Shown: positions 5,698-11,914 of the stretch, in pieces
How the letters are laid out: each line of letters starts with the position of its first letter
How positions within the stretch are numbered: the stretch's first letter is position 1
From: Pyrinomonadaceae bacterium
GTDB lineage: Bacteria > Acidobacteriota > Blastocatellia > Pyrinomonadales > Pyrinomonadaceae
Assembly (NCBI GenBank): GCA_013816505.1
Contig: JACDEG010000002.1
Span: 1-42,199, forward strand
DNA length: 42,199 nucleotides
Direction of reading: 5' to 3'
Position numbers and translations under genes: made by a program
Notes under the pieces: model-generated
Database searches by the model: none
The model's input: only the letters and a program-made list of their open reading frames with translations
What the model was told of the DNA's origin: nothing

Positions 5698-6888
5698 TTA
5701 ATCGAATGCGGGCTTCGGCAGCCCATTTTTATACTTCAGCACCAAACGCAGAGGCCGCACCAGGTAATAGAGAAAAGAGAGAGATGACGGCAGGGGAAGA
5801 GAAGCCCACTCTATCGGGGTGGGAGTTAGTACCTGATCGAAACAGTAGAGGGCCTTTCGGCGAAGGTATTCGATTGCCCTCAGATTAAAGAGATGCTCTT
5901 CAAAAAATCCGCCCGCCACATCGGTATCGCGCAGGAGAATACGATAAACCTGAGCGGCAAGCCTATCCATCGAGGGATCGGTTTTTATTCGTCGCGCAAG
6001 CTCACCCGGAAGCTCAACTCCGAATAGCTCGGATGCCAGGTGAAAACCCAAGAGGAGCATTCGCTCACTGCCCTGCCTGTCGGCCTGATCAATAAGCCGT
6101 TGCCAGTCCACCATTGTTGACGCACGCAGATGCGCGGCGAGGTCATAGATCATGCTCAGGAGGTGCCAGCAATGTTTGCTCCCATGCACACAAAGAAACA
6201 AGAGCATATCCTCAGCAGAGAGCGTAGCGACGATCCGACCGGCGACCGTCGTTGACTCAACTCTATTCCACACGTTTTCCGTATCAAGAGTCGCTTGAAA
6301 CCACCTGGGTGCGAGCGCCCAATGCAGATCAACGGCTACTCCTTCCACCTCGTGCCAGAACGCATGCTCGTTACGAAACCTGATCAGATCAGTTTCCTGT
6401 TCACGTGTGAGAGAGAACTGTGGGCAATAGCCATGAGAGATTAAAAGTTCGCGAGCTTTCGGGACATCCTCCGTGTGAATCAGAACGTCAAGATCACTAA
6501 ACTGCCGCAGCGCACTGTCGCCGTATGCCGAAAGCGCGAGCAAAGGGCCTTTGAATGGGACGGCCGCGATTTGATGCTCCTCAAAAAGCGCCAGAAGTTT
6601 TAGCAACTTGGCAGTCAGAAGAAGATTGCGCCGGGCATTGGCAGTGAACTGCTCGTGGAGTTGTGTGAGCGCAGCTTCAGGAACAAACGACGCGCAAGTT
6701 TCGCTCAGGCGCGCGTAGAGATGTGGCATCATCCCGTGATGGTTGGCGAGGCGAACTAAGCATTGCCAGTCCAGCCGCTGCTCTAACAGGGTGCGCAGAC
6801 GCTTGCACCCTCTGCGATGAGAGCGCATGGCGCAACAAAGCAGCAACTCGAATTCCGGTCGCATAGCGATGGTCGGGCTTTCGGTCAT
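5698..6888 (-). CDS. Nucleotidyltransferase-family protein (PF14907-like), probable lasso-peptide tailoring enzyme
   Basis: FKGPLLALSAYGDSALRQFSDLDVLIHTEDVPKARELL and AVDLHWAL motifs. Adjacent to the lasso kinase/methyltransferase genes. Confidence 0.8.
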   Translation of the reverse strand: MTESPTIAMRPEFELLLCCAMRSHRRGCKRLRTLLEQRLDWQCLVRLANHHGMMPHLYARLSETCASFVPEAALTQLHEQFTANARRNLLLTAKLLKLLALFEEHQIAAVPFKGPLLALSAYGDSALRQFSDLDVLIHTEDVPKARELLISHGYCPQFSLTREQETDLIRFRNEHAFWHEVEGVAVDLHWALAPRWFQATLDTENVWNRVESTTVAGRIVATLSAEDMLLFLCVHGSKHCWHLLSMIYDLAAHLRASTMVDWQRLIDQADRQGSERMLLLGFHLASELFGVELPGELARRIKTDPSMDRLAAQVYRILLRDTDVAGGFFEEHLFNLRAIEYLRRKALYCFDQVLTPTPIEWASLPLPSSLSFLYYLVRPLRLVLKYKNGLPKPAFD

Positions 6889-6891
6889 AAT

Positions 6892-8040
6892 CTACCGGCT
6901 GTAATTCTTAGACAATTCGCTGACGCGATTCAGAGCCTCCGGCCAGCCGATGAATTTATGAGGGAACCGCTCCGACAACGCCCGGGCGATTTCGCCGACC
7001 GAATTGTCACCGTTCATGAGCGACAGAATGAATCGGTCTATCTGACCACTCTCGTTTAGTGTCGGTACATGCGTCGTTGACTGTTTGCGTAAACGCGCAG
7101 GGGATAGTGGCACACCATAGAAAGTAGATTGCTTAAAATCAGCCTTGATCCGCGAAGAGTCTCCCTGCTCCTCGACGCGGGTCTCCCAACGCCAGATGTA
7201 GTCTTCGCCAACTAGATTAGCGTGCAGCGCGACTGATACGGTGTCGCCGTCAGCGAGCTTGACGGGCTTCAACCAAGGGAAGAAAGCATTACCGTAGATG
7301 AGTTCAGGCATGCCGGGAGCATTGGAGAACCCCACCCCTTCCACCAAGACGGTGTCAAACCAGGCGCTAATCCCATGAGCAGTTCCCGCACGCGCGACCG
7401 TCCATTTTAGTTCCGCACTGATGTTAGGGTTTTCCACTTCCGAATAGGCAAGCGTCCCCCAGCATTGCGGCTCTACCAACAATTGCTCCGGCGTCACACG
7501 CCCTTTATGCCACGTGTTAGCCGCGATCCGCTGCCCCGCCTCCATGTCGAGGCCGTAGTTGTTGTCATCCGAGTAAGCTATATGTTGCCGGTAAAGGTCT
7601 GGCGTTTCCACCACCGCCGCCCACAGGGTGTCGCGATGAGGAATTAGCTTGCCTCCGGGCGCAAGCAAACGCTGCCGGGCATCGGCAATGGAGGATATGT
7701 GGTGTTGAAACAGTGGGAGAATGCCGCGCAGGTCAGAGATGATGACATCAGCTCGCTCGGACAAAGTTACTTCAGTTGAGCTGCTTTGAATGAACTCGAT
7801 GCGCTCACTATAACCGTTGGCAGCAGCGGCCTCTCGCGCCACCTGAATGGCGTCGTCCGGCTCGACGGCGTAGACGCGGCGAGCGCCGAATTGACAAGCG
7901 AGCATCGCGAAAATGCCGGTGCCCGTGCCGATATCCAGAACAATCGAATTCGGTTCGATGACGCGGCGAAGCGCCTGCGTGTAAGCATCCATGCGCACGC
8001 TGTCGGCGATCATGCGGCCATAACTTGAAACGCTATACAT
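6892..8040 (-). CDS. PRMT-like class I SAM methyltransferase with C-terminal PqqD-like segment
   Basis: VLDIGTGTGIFAMLACQFGARRVYAVEPDD (motif I/post I) and ADVIISDLRG. C-terminus LNESGQIDRFILSLMNGDNSVGEIARALSERFP resembles PqqD/RRE folds. 8-nt overlap with the kinase gene. Confidence 0.75.
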   Translation of the reverse strand: MYSVSSYGRMIADSVRMDAYTQALRRVIEPNSIVLDIGTGTGIFAMLACQFGARRVYAVEPDDAIQVAREAAAANGYSERIEFIQSSSTEVTLSERADVIISDLRGILPLFQHHISSIADARQRLLAPGGKLIPHRDTLWAAVVETPDLYRQHIAYSDDNNYGLDMEAGQRIAANTWHKGRVTPEQLLVEPQCWGTLAYSEVENPNISAELKWTVARAGTAHGISAWFDTVLVEGVGFSNAPGMPELIYGNAFFPWLKPVKLADGDTVSVALHANLVGEDYIWRWETRVEEQGDSSRIKADFKQSTFYGVPLSPARLRKQSTTHVPTLNESGQIDRFILSLMNGDNSVGEIARALSERFPHKFIGWPEALNRVSELSKNYSR

Positions 8041-9049
8041 ATTGGCATTGCTCGGCGTCTGCGGAGGCAGGCGCGGGAGGGATTAACGCTTGGAAGTCAT
8101 CCAGAATCACTTCACACATTCTTGACAGATACGCAGGGTCTGCATGCGGCTCCACGCGTCGCAAAGGGATGTGGGCAACAACGCGACTTAACAACTCAAG
8201 CTCTCGGGCGCGCAGCGCCTTGTCCAACAGATAGTTAGTGTACGTGTTTGAAATCAGGGTGATGAGACCCGCCTGGGGGGATACATCTTCAACGCGAGGC
8301 GCTACGGAATCGCTGCGGCGCTCGCCGAGAATGTAAACGGCGGAGAGTGGCAGCGGCTGTTGTTGAAAACAATATCCTTTCAGCGTGAGGTCGAGGTAAC
8401 GTTTATCCCAAGTCGGCGTCAAGCGTGGCAATGCTTCCGCGGAGCCGTAGAGAAGGTCGACGGACGACGGCCACAGGCGCAAGCGCGGGTAACCGGGCTG
8501 CGACCCAAAAGTGTCCCCTTGATCGATGAGAGCGACTACGTCGTCAGACAACACGGGATAGCCTAATCCGGCGAAGGCCGCGGCGGTAGTCGATTTTCCC
8601 GCGCCAGCCGGCCCAAGCAGCGCAATCGCCTGACCATTGACCGCTATAGCGCTGGCGTGCAGGCAAGTAATTCCGCGCAGGCGCAAGACAAACCCCATGA
8701 CTGGTCCTAAGAGGTAGGTGGTCATATCACTGAGGGTCATGGTATCGGGCCAACTAGCCCATATCTCTTTCCCCCGCCGGTCGATGAAGAACTCAGTGCC
8801 GTCACAGTAAAGGAGACGAAAATACTCGCCGTCCGCCAGCCTCCACACAGTTAAACTGGGCTGGCCCCACCTGTCTTGATAACTGTTGGCGTACCACAAC
8901 TCTATTGCCGCTTCTGATATTTCCTTCAACCAGGGCGGCACCATTTCTATCCACACTTGCACATCGACACCGGCGGCAACCGACATCTCCACTAAGCCGG
9001 GGATGCGCTTATTGGCCTGCAATTGCAAGCCAAAAACAGAATAAATCAA
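8033..9049 (-). CDS. HPr kinase-like protein, putative lasso-peptide kinase
   Basis: Walker A GPAGAGKSTTAAAF, LSDDVVAL, HASAIAVNG. TTG start. Immediately downstream of the precursor gene. Confidence 0.85.
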   Translation of the reverse strand: MIYSVFGLQLQANKRIPGLVEMSVAAGVDVQVWIEMVPPWLKEISEAAIELWYANSYQDRWGQPSLTVWRLADGEYFRLLYCDGTEFFIDRRGKEIWASWPDTMTLSDMTTYLLGPVMGFVLRLRGITCLHASAIAVNGQAIALLGPAGAGKSTTAAAFAGLGYPVLSDDVVALIDQGDTFGSQPGYPRLRLWPSSVDLLYGSAEALPRLTPTWDKRYLDLTLKGYCFQQQPLPLSAVYILGERRSDSVAPRVEDVSPQAGLITLISNTYTNYLLDKALRARELELLSRVVAHIPLRRVEPHADPAYLSRMCEVILDDFQALIPPAPASADAEQCQYV

Positions 9050-9085: not shown

Positions 9086-9247
9086 CTACGAAGTCTTGTT
9101 ACCGGTCTGTATGAAGTCCGGGTTATTCCCACCTTTAGGCGAAGTTCGTGTAATCTCGCGAATGTCCCCGTAGAGTATCAGTTGGGGCTTGTCATAAGGC
9201 TTTTTTACAACTTTCTCATTGACAGCTTTCTCATCTGGACCTCGCAC
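9086..9247 (-). CDS. Lasso peptide precursor (53 aa; not in supplied ORF track)
   Basis: Manual translation: MRGPDEKAVNEKVVKKPYDKPQLILYGDIREITRTSPKGGNNPDFIQTGNKTS*. GTG start with AGGGAG 10 nt upstream. Leader Y-xx-P-x-L-xxx-G-xxxxx-T. Lies directly between cyclase and kinase genes. Confidence 0.85.
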   Translation of the reverse strand: MRGPDEKAVNEKVVKKPYDKPQLILYGDIREITRTSPKGGNNPDFIQTGNKTS

Positions 9248-9263: not shown

Positions 9264-11096
9264 CTAAGGTTTATAGTTGCTGCGGTGCCGCAACCAGTAA
9301 TTAAGACTGAGTGGATGCATGTTGATCCACATCTGATTGGGGTCTTTCTTCCCTGTGAGGCGCGGAATCAAATCTCTATTAACATATCTGGCAAGTTCTT
9401 GAGTGGGGTTGAAGTCATCCACCCAGTGAGAATCGCGATGCCGTAGAAGCTCCAAGATAGGGTCGCCTGCAAGGGGCGCCTTCGGGCGACAACGCACCGG
9501 CTCCGGCAAAATGTGGCGCATCGCGACACGTAACAGGTGTTTGTTTATGCACCAGGGGATTGGCGGAATTGCCAGCATGTAAATCATCAACCTGAGGTCG
9601 AAGAAAGGATGCCGGACTTCAATCGGTGTCGATGTTACGCCCGCATCATAGGTCTCAAAAAGCTTGGGCCAAAATGGTGCCGTGGTTAGTTGGTATCCTT
9701 CAGGTCGGAAGGGGTGAACCGGTGGCGGCTCCTTATTCAACTCTTCCCAACGCGCTCGCAAATCCAATCTTGCTTCAAGAGCTCTGGTAAACCAGACCGG
9801 GTATGGCGACTGCCAGGAACACTTATTGAGCCAGCGCTTCACTCGCGAGCGGAAGCCAAGCGGGGGTAATCGACCGTGCGATATGAGCTGGAGATACATG
9901 TCTGTAAGAAGCTGCCCGAAGTGCAGATGTTTCATTAAGAATGGAACGTATGAGGAAGAGCCGCGCAAGGCCGGGTCAGCTCCATAGCCGGACAATGCGA
10001 CGCGGCAGTGTGCTGCGACTTGCCGGTACTGGTCATTGACAACCGCTGCCGCAAACGGTTCATTTAAAGGCTCGGGTGTGCATAACTCAGGCTCACCCCA
10101 ACGCTCATAAAGCTTATAATCGTCAGCCGTCAAATAATGGATCGGGATGCCCAACTTCTGCGCCACCAGCCCTGAGTAGTGACGCTCCTGATCGGGAATC
10201 AATTTGTCGAAAACTACTGTGTAGGCTCGGAGGTCAAAGCTCGTAGATCGTTCGGATAGTATATCGTGAGCCGTCGCCGCTACCGCTGTAGAGTCAAGAC
10301 CGCCGCTCATGAGCACTCCCGTGCGTTGCGTGCGAAGCCGATCATCTACCGCCGTTCGTAATCGCTCAATAAAGCCTTCAACGTAATCCCCGGCCTTCGT
10401 ATACCGGATTTGCTTACCTGCGGGGGGCGTCCAGTAGCGGCCCAGGTGTGGCGACCCTCCCGACCAAGTCAGGGAATGCGCGGGCGGCAAGCGTCTGATG
10501 TCGGCGAAGGATGTGGTGGCCAGGTCTTGATTAAAACCCCAAAGCAGGAAATCGCCGACAGCCAGATCATTTAAAGCGTCTGAGACACCCGGGTGAATTC
10601 GTAAGCAATTCAGGGTATTGCTGATTATTAAGTGGCTTGCCACGTGAGCATAGTAAAACGGCTTCACCCCGAAGTGGTCGCGGGCACCGAATAAGCGTTG
10701 CCGCCACCCGTCCCATAGTACAAAAGCGAAGTCGCCGATCAAATGCTGAACACAGTCCTCGTCCCAAACGTGATAAGCGTGCAGGATAAGCTCGGCATCG
10801 GTGGCGGTCTTAAGACCGGCGCGTCCTTTGACCTCTAATTTTCGAATCAGCTCTGCCCTGCCATCGACACGCGCATCGCCGGTAATCCACACTTTGCCGT
10901 CCAGGCTACATGGCTGCCTCTCGTGCAGCGACTCCGTGGTCGTGCGCATCATCGTGTGTCCGAGGCCAACATGACCGTCGCACCAGATTTCCTGAGCGTC
11001 CGGCCCGCGAAAGGCCATGAAGTCGGTCATCCGCTGCAACAATGTCTGGTCAACGGGCGCGCCGTTGGTGTTGATTAATCCGACAATGCCACTCAC
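9264..11096 (-). CDS. Lasso peptide isopeptide-bond-forming cyclase (asparagine synthetase-like, C protein)
   Basis: MSGIVGLINTNG N-terminus (Ser2 instead of glutaminase Cys2), FRGPDAQEIW, GVLMSGGLDSTAVAATA ATP-pyrophosphatase motif. Adjacent to B1/B2. Confidence 0.9.
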   Translation of the reverse strand: MSGIVGLINTNGAPVDQTLLQRMTDFMAFRGPDAQEIWCDGHVGLGHTMMRTTTESLHERQPCSLDGKVWITGDARVDGRAELIRKLEVKGRAGLKTATDAELILHAYHVWDEDCVQHLIGDFAFVLWDGWRQRLFGARDHFGVKPFYYAHVASHLIISNTLNCLRIHPGVSDALNDLAVGDFLLWGFNQDLATTSFADIRRLPPAHSLTWSGGSPHLGRYWTPPAGKQIRYTKAGDYVEGFIERLRTAVDDRLRTQRTGVLMSGGLDSTAVAATAHDILSERSTSFDLRAYTVVFDKLIPDQERHYSGLVAQKLGIPIHYLTADDYKLYERWGEPELCTPEPLNEPFAAAVVNDQYRQVAAHCRVALSGYGADPALRGSSSYVPFLMKHLHFGQLLTDMYLQLISHGRLPPLGFRSRVKRWLNKCSWQSPYPVWFTRALEARLDLRARWEELNKEPPPVHPFRPEGYQLTTAPFWPKLFETYDAGVTSTPIEVRHPFFDLRLMIYMLAIPPIPWCINKHLLRVAMRHILPEPVRCRPKAPLAGDPILELLRHRDSHWVDDFNPTQELARYVNRDLIPRLTGKKDPNQMWINMHPLSLNYWLRHRSNYKP

Positions 11097-11578
11097 TGAA
11101 ATTTCTTTCCCGGTGCGATGTTATATTCGAAAGGCGTAAAGCGTTGGCGAACGTCGTCGCTATCGTTCAAGGCAACGCCTGCGAACTCGACCCACGCGTG
11201 TGCATCCAACCGCGCAGCATTTTTGCGTGCGCCGATGCAAAGATAGCTCCCGATCCCCTGGCGGCGCAGCAACCACCAGAGCACGAGCGACTGCGGAAGG
11301 CAGCTGGCGTGGTAAAAGCCATGCATAGCGGCTGCCCTGACCATTCTCGCAGTGATCTGCGCCCGCCGTAAAAGAGTCTCATCATGGTTGGCGCTTGAGG
11401 GCTTATCTACGGGCGCGAGCCTTGCCAGAGCGGATTGCCAACGCCTGAAACCCGACCGCCGGAGCGCGAGTGAACAGAGCGGCAGCAAAAGGAACGCCTG
11501 CGCAAGCAACCGGCGCTCTCGCCAGGATAAGCGCTGAAATTTTCCCCAGCTAGTCGCTGCTGATTTCGAGTATCCCAT
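11093..11578 (-). CDS. Lasso peptide biosynthesis B2 protein (transglutaminase-like leader protease)
   Basis: HASCLPQSLVLWWLLRRQGIGSYLCIGARKN...LDAHAWVEFAGVALND: Cys-His-Asp triad context. 4-nt overlap with the cyclase gene. Confidence 0.9.
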   Translation of the reverse strand: MGYSKSAATSWGKFQRLSWRERRLLAQAFLLLPLCSLALRRSGFRRWQSALARLAPVDKPSSANHDETLLRRAQITARMVRAAAMHGFYHASCLPQSLVLWWLLRRQGIGSYLCIGARKNAARLDAHAWVEFAGVALNDSDDVRQRFTPFEYNIAPGKKFQ

Positions 11579-11834
11579 GCTCCACCGACTTCTCGATCAG
11601 ATCATCCAAGTCGCGCCGGAGCGACTCGGCATCCACCTCATATTCACGCAGCAGCGTTTCATACGCGGCTTGAATTGACTCGCTCGTGGTAAGCACGGTC
11701 CACATCCGCGTACCTACGGCATCAAGCCCAAAGTAACACTCACTATTCAGGTTGAGAATGACAGACTCGTCACCGACGTGTGAGACGAGTATCTCAGTCG
11801 GTGATGAAACCGATGCTGCGAATGAGACTCTCAT
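11550..11834 (-). CDS. PqqD-family/lasso peptide B1 protein (RiPP recognition element)
   Basis: MRVSFAASVSSPTEILVSHVGDESVILNLNSECYFGLDAVGTRMWTVLTTSESIQAAYETLLREYEVDAESLRRDLDDLIEKSVEHGIL. Start placed at 11834, with GGAAGG upstream, rather than 11891. Confidence 0.9.
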   Translation of the reverse strand: MRVSFAASVSSPTEILVSHVGDESVILNLNSECYFGLDAVGTRMWTVLTTSESIQAAYETLLREYEVDAESLRRDLDDLIEKSVEHGILEISSD

Positions 11835-11914
11835 AACCGATTTCCTTCCGAGGAAATTTACCGTGTCTTGACTCGCTGCGACGCCCTTCAAATGACCTTC
11901 GGCAATTGAAGGTT

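Follow-up and report, generated by a model that had tools for sequence, protein, structure and literature searches.

Acidobacteriota lasso precursors with a first core acid at position 10 recur beside Asp9 relatives and are candidates for a 10-residue ring

Ring size sets a basic limit on the design of lasso peptides, and the rules by which genomes are mined for the family seek an acid at core positions 7-9. According to a 2026 review, characterised lasso rings have 7, 8 and 9 residues only, and changing the ring by one residue sharply lowered yield in the systems tested (PMC13352647). We analyzed a 42,199-nucleotide stretch of a Pyrinomonadaceae contig (the window) that encodes a lasso precursor whose sole core acid, in the canonical register, is an aspartate at position 10. 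Does this peptide close a 10-residue ring, of which we found no example in open-access papers, or is its leader cut at another site? An acid would fall at position 7, 8 or 9 only if the cut is shifted.

The precursor gene, A, lies in an intact operon with the order B1-B2-C-A-kinase-methyltransferase-nucleotidyltransferase:

11550 to 11891, minus strand: RRE protein B1, PqqD fold (PF05402, 49.9 bits)
11093 to 11578, minus strand: leader peptidase B2 (NF033537, 79.9 bits, cut-off 33)
9264 to 11096, minus strand: lasso cyclase C, asparagine-synthetase-like (PF00733, 103 bits; NF033535, 371 bits, short of its cut-off of 525)
9086 to 9247, minus strand: lasso precursor gene A, 53 amino acids (homologues; NF033528 lasso_cyano, 25 bits, below the curated cut-off of 33 bits)
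8033 to 9049, minus strand: HPrK-related kinase with P-loop GPAGAGKST (a weak match, HprK_rel_A 32.4 bits against a cut-off of 200; neighbour conserved in relatives)
6892 to 8040, minus strand: PRMT-like methyltransferase with a weak PqqD-like C terminus (PF05402, 18.4 bits, below cut-off)
5698 to 6888, minus strand: NTP_transf_5 nucleotidyltransferase (222.6 bits)

As in lasso clusters, genes for a B1 RRE protein, a transglutaminase-like B2 peptidase and a C cyclase accompany a small precursor; of the lasso NCBIfam models, that for B2 scores above its cut-off and those for C and B1 fall below subgroup cut-offs. By inspection, the cyclase has an intact SGGLDS and no N-terminal Cys nucleophile, and the expected B2 motifs hold Cys93, His127 and Asp139. 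The best solved-structure match of B1 is TbiB1 (5v1u). Adjacent to these lasso genes are an HPrK-like kinase and an NTP transferase, the pair that marks paeninodin-like clusters, and their synteny is kept in relatives. The operon sits in an exopolysaccharide locus with glycosyltransferases, a Wzy-type ligase, and chain-length and export genes, the last two named from their translations without a family search. The PRMT-like methyltransferase is kept in many of these lasso clusters, yet the core in the window contains no Arg; a contig scan for the methyltransferase with one short pattern turned up just a few lasso loci.

Gene A begins 16 nt past the cyclase stop and ends 36 nt ahead of the kinase start. 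Its start codon is GTG, its stop is TAG, and a AGAGGGAG-like Shine-Dalgarno sequence lies ~10 nt 5′ of the GTG. The operon, the ribosome-binding site and the homologues described below rule out a chance ORF. The encoded protein divides as follows:

9146 to 9247, minus strand: leader MRGPDEKAVNEKVVKKPYDKPQLILYGDIREITR, canonical spacing
9179 to 9196, minus strand: YxxPxL motif, YDKPQL, positions -17 to -12 (read from sequence)
9149 to 9151, minus strand: Thr(-2) codon (sequence and conserved spacing)
9089 to 9145, minus strand: core TSPKGGNNPDFIQTGNKTS, followed by the stop codon at 9088-9086
9116 to 9118, minus strand: Asp10 codon, sole core acid and proposed acceptor (sequence and homologues)

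In lasso leaders, YxxPxL spans -17 to -12 (PMC10368454). Counting back from T1, gene A has Thr(-2), Leu(-12), Pro(-14) and Tyr(-17), and thus both the motif and the threonine stand at canonical lasso spacing. This count confirms the placement of the only core Asp/Glu at position 10 by a first-pass annotation, which had set the end coordinate at 9147, 2 nt too high (the core codons run from 9145 to 9089). The leader reads YDKP and lacks the WxxP motif of paeninodin-like leaders.

Phylum-wide searches in Acidobacteriota yielded ~75 distinct related precursor sequences. The distance from the leader Tyr or Trp to the Thr was identical in all 67 real precursors checked in fetched regions (three exceptions were spurious ORFs and were excluded), which rules out variable leader length. 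In most YxxP precursors an acid is found at 8 or 9. However, six that lie next to lasso genes (the window, L031, L038, L040, L213 and L214) have their first acid at 10 and none at 7-9; the other five cores begin AGGMTSRNSD, VTTKGGNHQD (L038), TLNSLMGNAD, AVNAPTGNPD (L213) and TQTMSGVNMD. Asp10, which had initially been handled as a singleton, is therefore a minority type that recurs within the phylum. A frame error or assembly slip is ruled out, as one extra codon does not disrupt the reading frame and six genomes share Asp10. Among the ~75 precursors, a first acid lying only at 11-14 was seen in none of the YxxP type that adjoin a cyclase. L044 (acids at 10, 16, 17, 18 and 19) and L091 were left out because an adjacent cyclase was not found or not sought; the first acid of a second ORF in L221 is at 17.

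The gene content of the Asp10 loci varies. The L214 cluster has B1, B2, C, methyltransferase, kinase and nucleotidyltransferase genes. In the L213 and L040 clusters there are B1, C, kinase and methyltransferase genes, and no B2 was found alongside either precursor; L038 is a 3-kb contig carrying B2 and C. The L031 precursor (genome G253, 8031-8141, plus strand) is found together with C and a methyltransferase; no B1, B2 or kinase was detected near it, and the sole B2-type match of that genome is on contig C15.

The residues around the acid are also informative. Asp10 is followed by Gly-Gly in four of the six cores (L031, L038, L213 and L214), by Gly-Met in L040 and by Phe-Ile in the window; Gly-Gly follows the acceptor in 12 of 19 Asp9 cores. 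This similarity of context supports Asp10 as the acceptor. Asn8 is found in 5/6 Asp10 cores compared to 4/19 Asp9 cores at the matching site, a suggestive difference that is uncorrected for relatedness.

A cyclase tree of 53 rows contains one clade with 100/100 support and 20 rows: 14 Asp9, 5 Asp10 and one Asp8/9. All Asp10 cyclases except that of L038 belong to this Asp9 clade. The other side of the tree holds Asp8 types, several mixed cases, L038 and a group with WxxP leaders. We found no single clade of Asp10 cyclases. Instead, the Asp10 labels are scattered, requiring 5 changes, of which starred branches force at least 4; 86 of 500 shuffles were just as clustered. The tree indicates that Asp10 arose repeatedly beside Asp9 and is confined neither to a single lineage nor to a single odd gene.

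Where is the leader cut? We built a cut-site profile of positions -2 to +2 from 19 Asp9 precursors, 17 from clade loci and two with truncated cyclases left out of the tree. The profile presumes a putative cut after T-x in the Asp9 relatives and, since its sequences are related, differences in nats are not p-values. In leave-one-out runs, register 0 was recovered in 19/19 precursors, and in 16/19 when Thr was omitted. If the cut moved by one residue, placing Thr at -3, the window would have a Ser1-Asp9 ring of ordinary size; this would suit a cyclase of fixed ring size, as the remaining members of the clade predict 9-residue rings. However, register 0 was preferred over +1 by 12.7 nats in the window (8.6 without Thr), in all five clade Asp10 members, and by 58 nats summed over the six precursors (29 without Thr), with only L038 showing a slight preference for +1 without Thr. 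A one-residue shift also sits poorly with the invariant leader spacing, and it would have cores begin with S, G, L, V and Q, mostly unlike the clade. We consider this reading unlikely. As predicted with the unshifted cut, the five clade Asp10 cores start with T, A, T, A and T (L038 with V), preceded in the six precursors by R, Q, Q, Q, G and K. These starts resemble those of Asp9 cores (A, N, T and G; the AV start of L213 is that of several Asp9 cores), and are unlike the residues at -1 of the leaders (Q, R, L, K, E and H), supporting the unshifted cut.

A shift of two residues, with T1 serving as Thr(-2), would give Pro1-Asp8. The first-pass annotation had listed Pro1-Asp8 among its shifts and had overlooked that T1 could itself take the role of the conserved threonine. 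T1 is present in the window, L040 and L214, and register +2 ties with 0 in L040 and is preferred in L214. Register 0 is favored over +2 in the window (by 9.0 nats), L031 and L213, the latter two having no Thr at position 1. Moreover, +2 would set an 8-residue ring within a 9-residue clade and would require Pro as the N-terminal nucleophile. We know of no lasso peptide in which Pro has this role. For the window, a two-residue shift is thus very unlikely. L038 is a different case: its cyclase groups with Asp8 types, and its core aligns as VT+TKGGNHQD with the TKGGNRAD of L181, such that the extra two residues look N-terminal. This precursor may form an 8-residue ring after a moved cut, and a two-residue shift may apply in L038, L040 and L214.

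Since the profile favors the unshifted cut, the extra residue is more likely within the ring than the product of a moved cut site, and one residue added inside the ring is the simplest reading of the Asp10 precursors. The alignment of homologues that had been proposed as a check on the Asp position points the same way, through the invariant Thr and the presence of D10 among D9 cyclases, and leaves L038, L040 and L214 ambiguous at +2. Of the options first raised for this locus, a 10-residue ring is therefore favored by the homologues, the ring itself being a prediction, and a shifted cut is disfavored.

The peptide could also be cut and tail-modified without cyclising, or form an unthreaded ring, for example as a linear phosphopeptide or a branched ring. 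Atypical paeninodin-like clusters occur within capsular polysaccharide loci of Bacilli, and they share an RRE, a kinase and an NTP transferase with the linear polyphosphorylated peptides (LPPs) (PMC13381572). Threading, in addition, cannot be read from a sequence. Nevertheless, the window has cyclase and B2 genes with intact catalytic motifs, the context of Asp10 is similar to that in Asp9 relatives, and the leader, which reads YDKPQLILYGDIREITRT, lacks the LPP consensus YxxPxVLxHQxIxFETxxS. A linear or unthreaded product is quite unlikely.

Our preferred reading, to which we assign a probability of roughly 0.55, is that gene A encodes a predicted Thr1-Asp10 macrolactam of ten residues. Starting from the genes, leader spacing, sole acid and Asp10 recurrence observed here, we infer its cut site, ring closure, threading and tail modification. 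Gene A would give rise to a lasso peptide of class II type, its leader motif YDKPQL being bound by B1. B2 would cleave past Thr(-2)-Arg(-1), freeing Thr1, and cyclase C would adenylate Asp10 and couple it to the Thr1 amine, closing the ring; FIQTGNKTS would pass through it as the threaded tail. Near the C terminus, a [K/R]T element is common to the clade Asp10 cores and most Asp9 cores, with the window ending in NKTS. Given this element and the adjoining HPrK-like kinase, the terminal Thr/Ser of the tail might be phosphorylated, by analogy with paeninodin, and the nucleotidyltransferase and methyltransferase perhaps modify the tail further.

Two neighboring groups were also seen. Six precursors with WxxP leaders from the window's own family (L046:2767(-), L168:8038(-), L174:7807(-), L175:2035(+), L176:7927(-) and L178:7988(-)) adjoin cyclase and kinase genes, and B1 and B2 too in four of them. 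Counted from Thr(-2), these precursors place DD(F/I) at 11/12, 14/15 or 16/17, and positions 7-9 lack an acid in all but L174, which also has Asp9; their cyclases form one 100/100 clade. Such positions could reflect rings of much greater size or else a cut made elsewhere. In an Asp8 cyclase subclade (L083, L084, L085, L201, L203, L204, L206 and L209), the precursors end in Cys-Leu and mostly occur with a methyltransferase, whereas most Asp9 and Asp10 precursors have [K/R]T at or near their end, making two distinct C-terminal elements. The L227 (G664) and L085 clusters have the same core and cyclase.

If the Thr1-Asp10 reading is true, the ring would be larger than every characterised lasso ring, and a 10-residue class would escape mining rules set to an acid at 7-9. 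A broader proposal, that cyclases or substrates in Acidobacteriota repeatedly evolved 10-residue rings (Thr1/Ala1-Asp10) from 9-residue ancestors, with the WxxP clade perhaps going further (11-17), could equally well be right or wrong on these data. The Asp10 precursors are a recurrent and testable variant of the lasso family, and the six clusters, set beside Asp9 relatives from the same branch of the cyclase tree, offer a natural comparison for the determinants of ring size.

Among known systems, class II clusters with split B1 and B2 (fusilassin/fuscanodin, TbiB1) have the same B1, B2 and C homologues, YxxPxL at -17 and Thr(-2), but the canonical register puts the sole acceptor of the window at position 10. 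Paeninodin-like clusters also have the HPrK-like kinase, NTP_transf_5 and terminal Ser/Thr; they differ from the window in its YxxP in place of WxxP, its extra PRMT-like methyltransferase and its Asp10. The Bradymonas bsf cluster (PMC10368454) likewise contains A, B1, B2, C, a kinase and a nucleotidyltransferase, but combines Ile(-2) with Gly1-Asp8, compared to Thr(-2) with Asp10 in the window, and has an ABC transporter that was not seen in the window operon. Related too are the Asp9 Acidobacteriota loci L032, L163, L165 and L216, which share with the window the cyclase clade, the C-terminal KT element, the kinase and, mostly, the methyltransferase, and have one residue fewer from Thr(-2) to the acceptor Asp.
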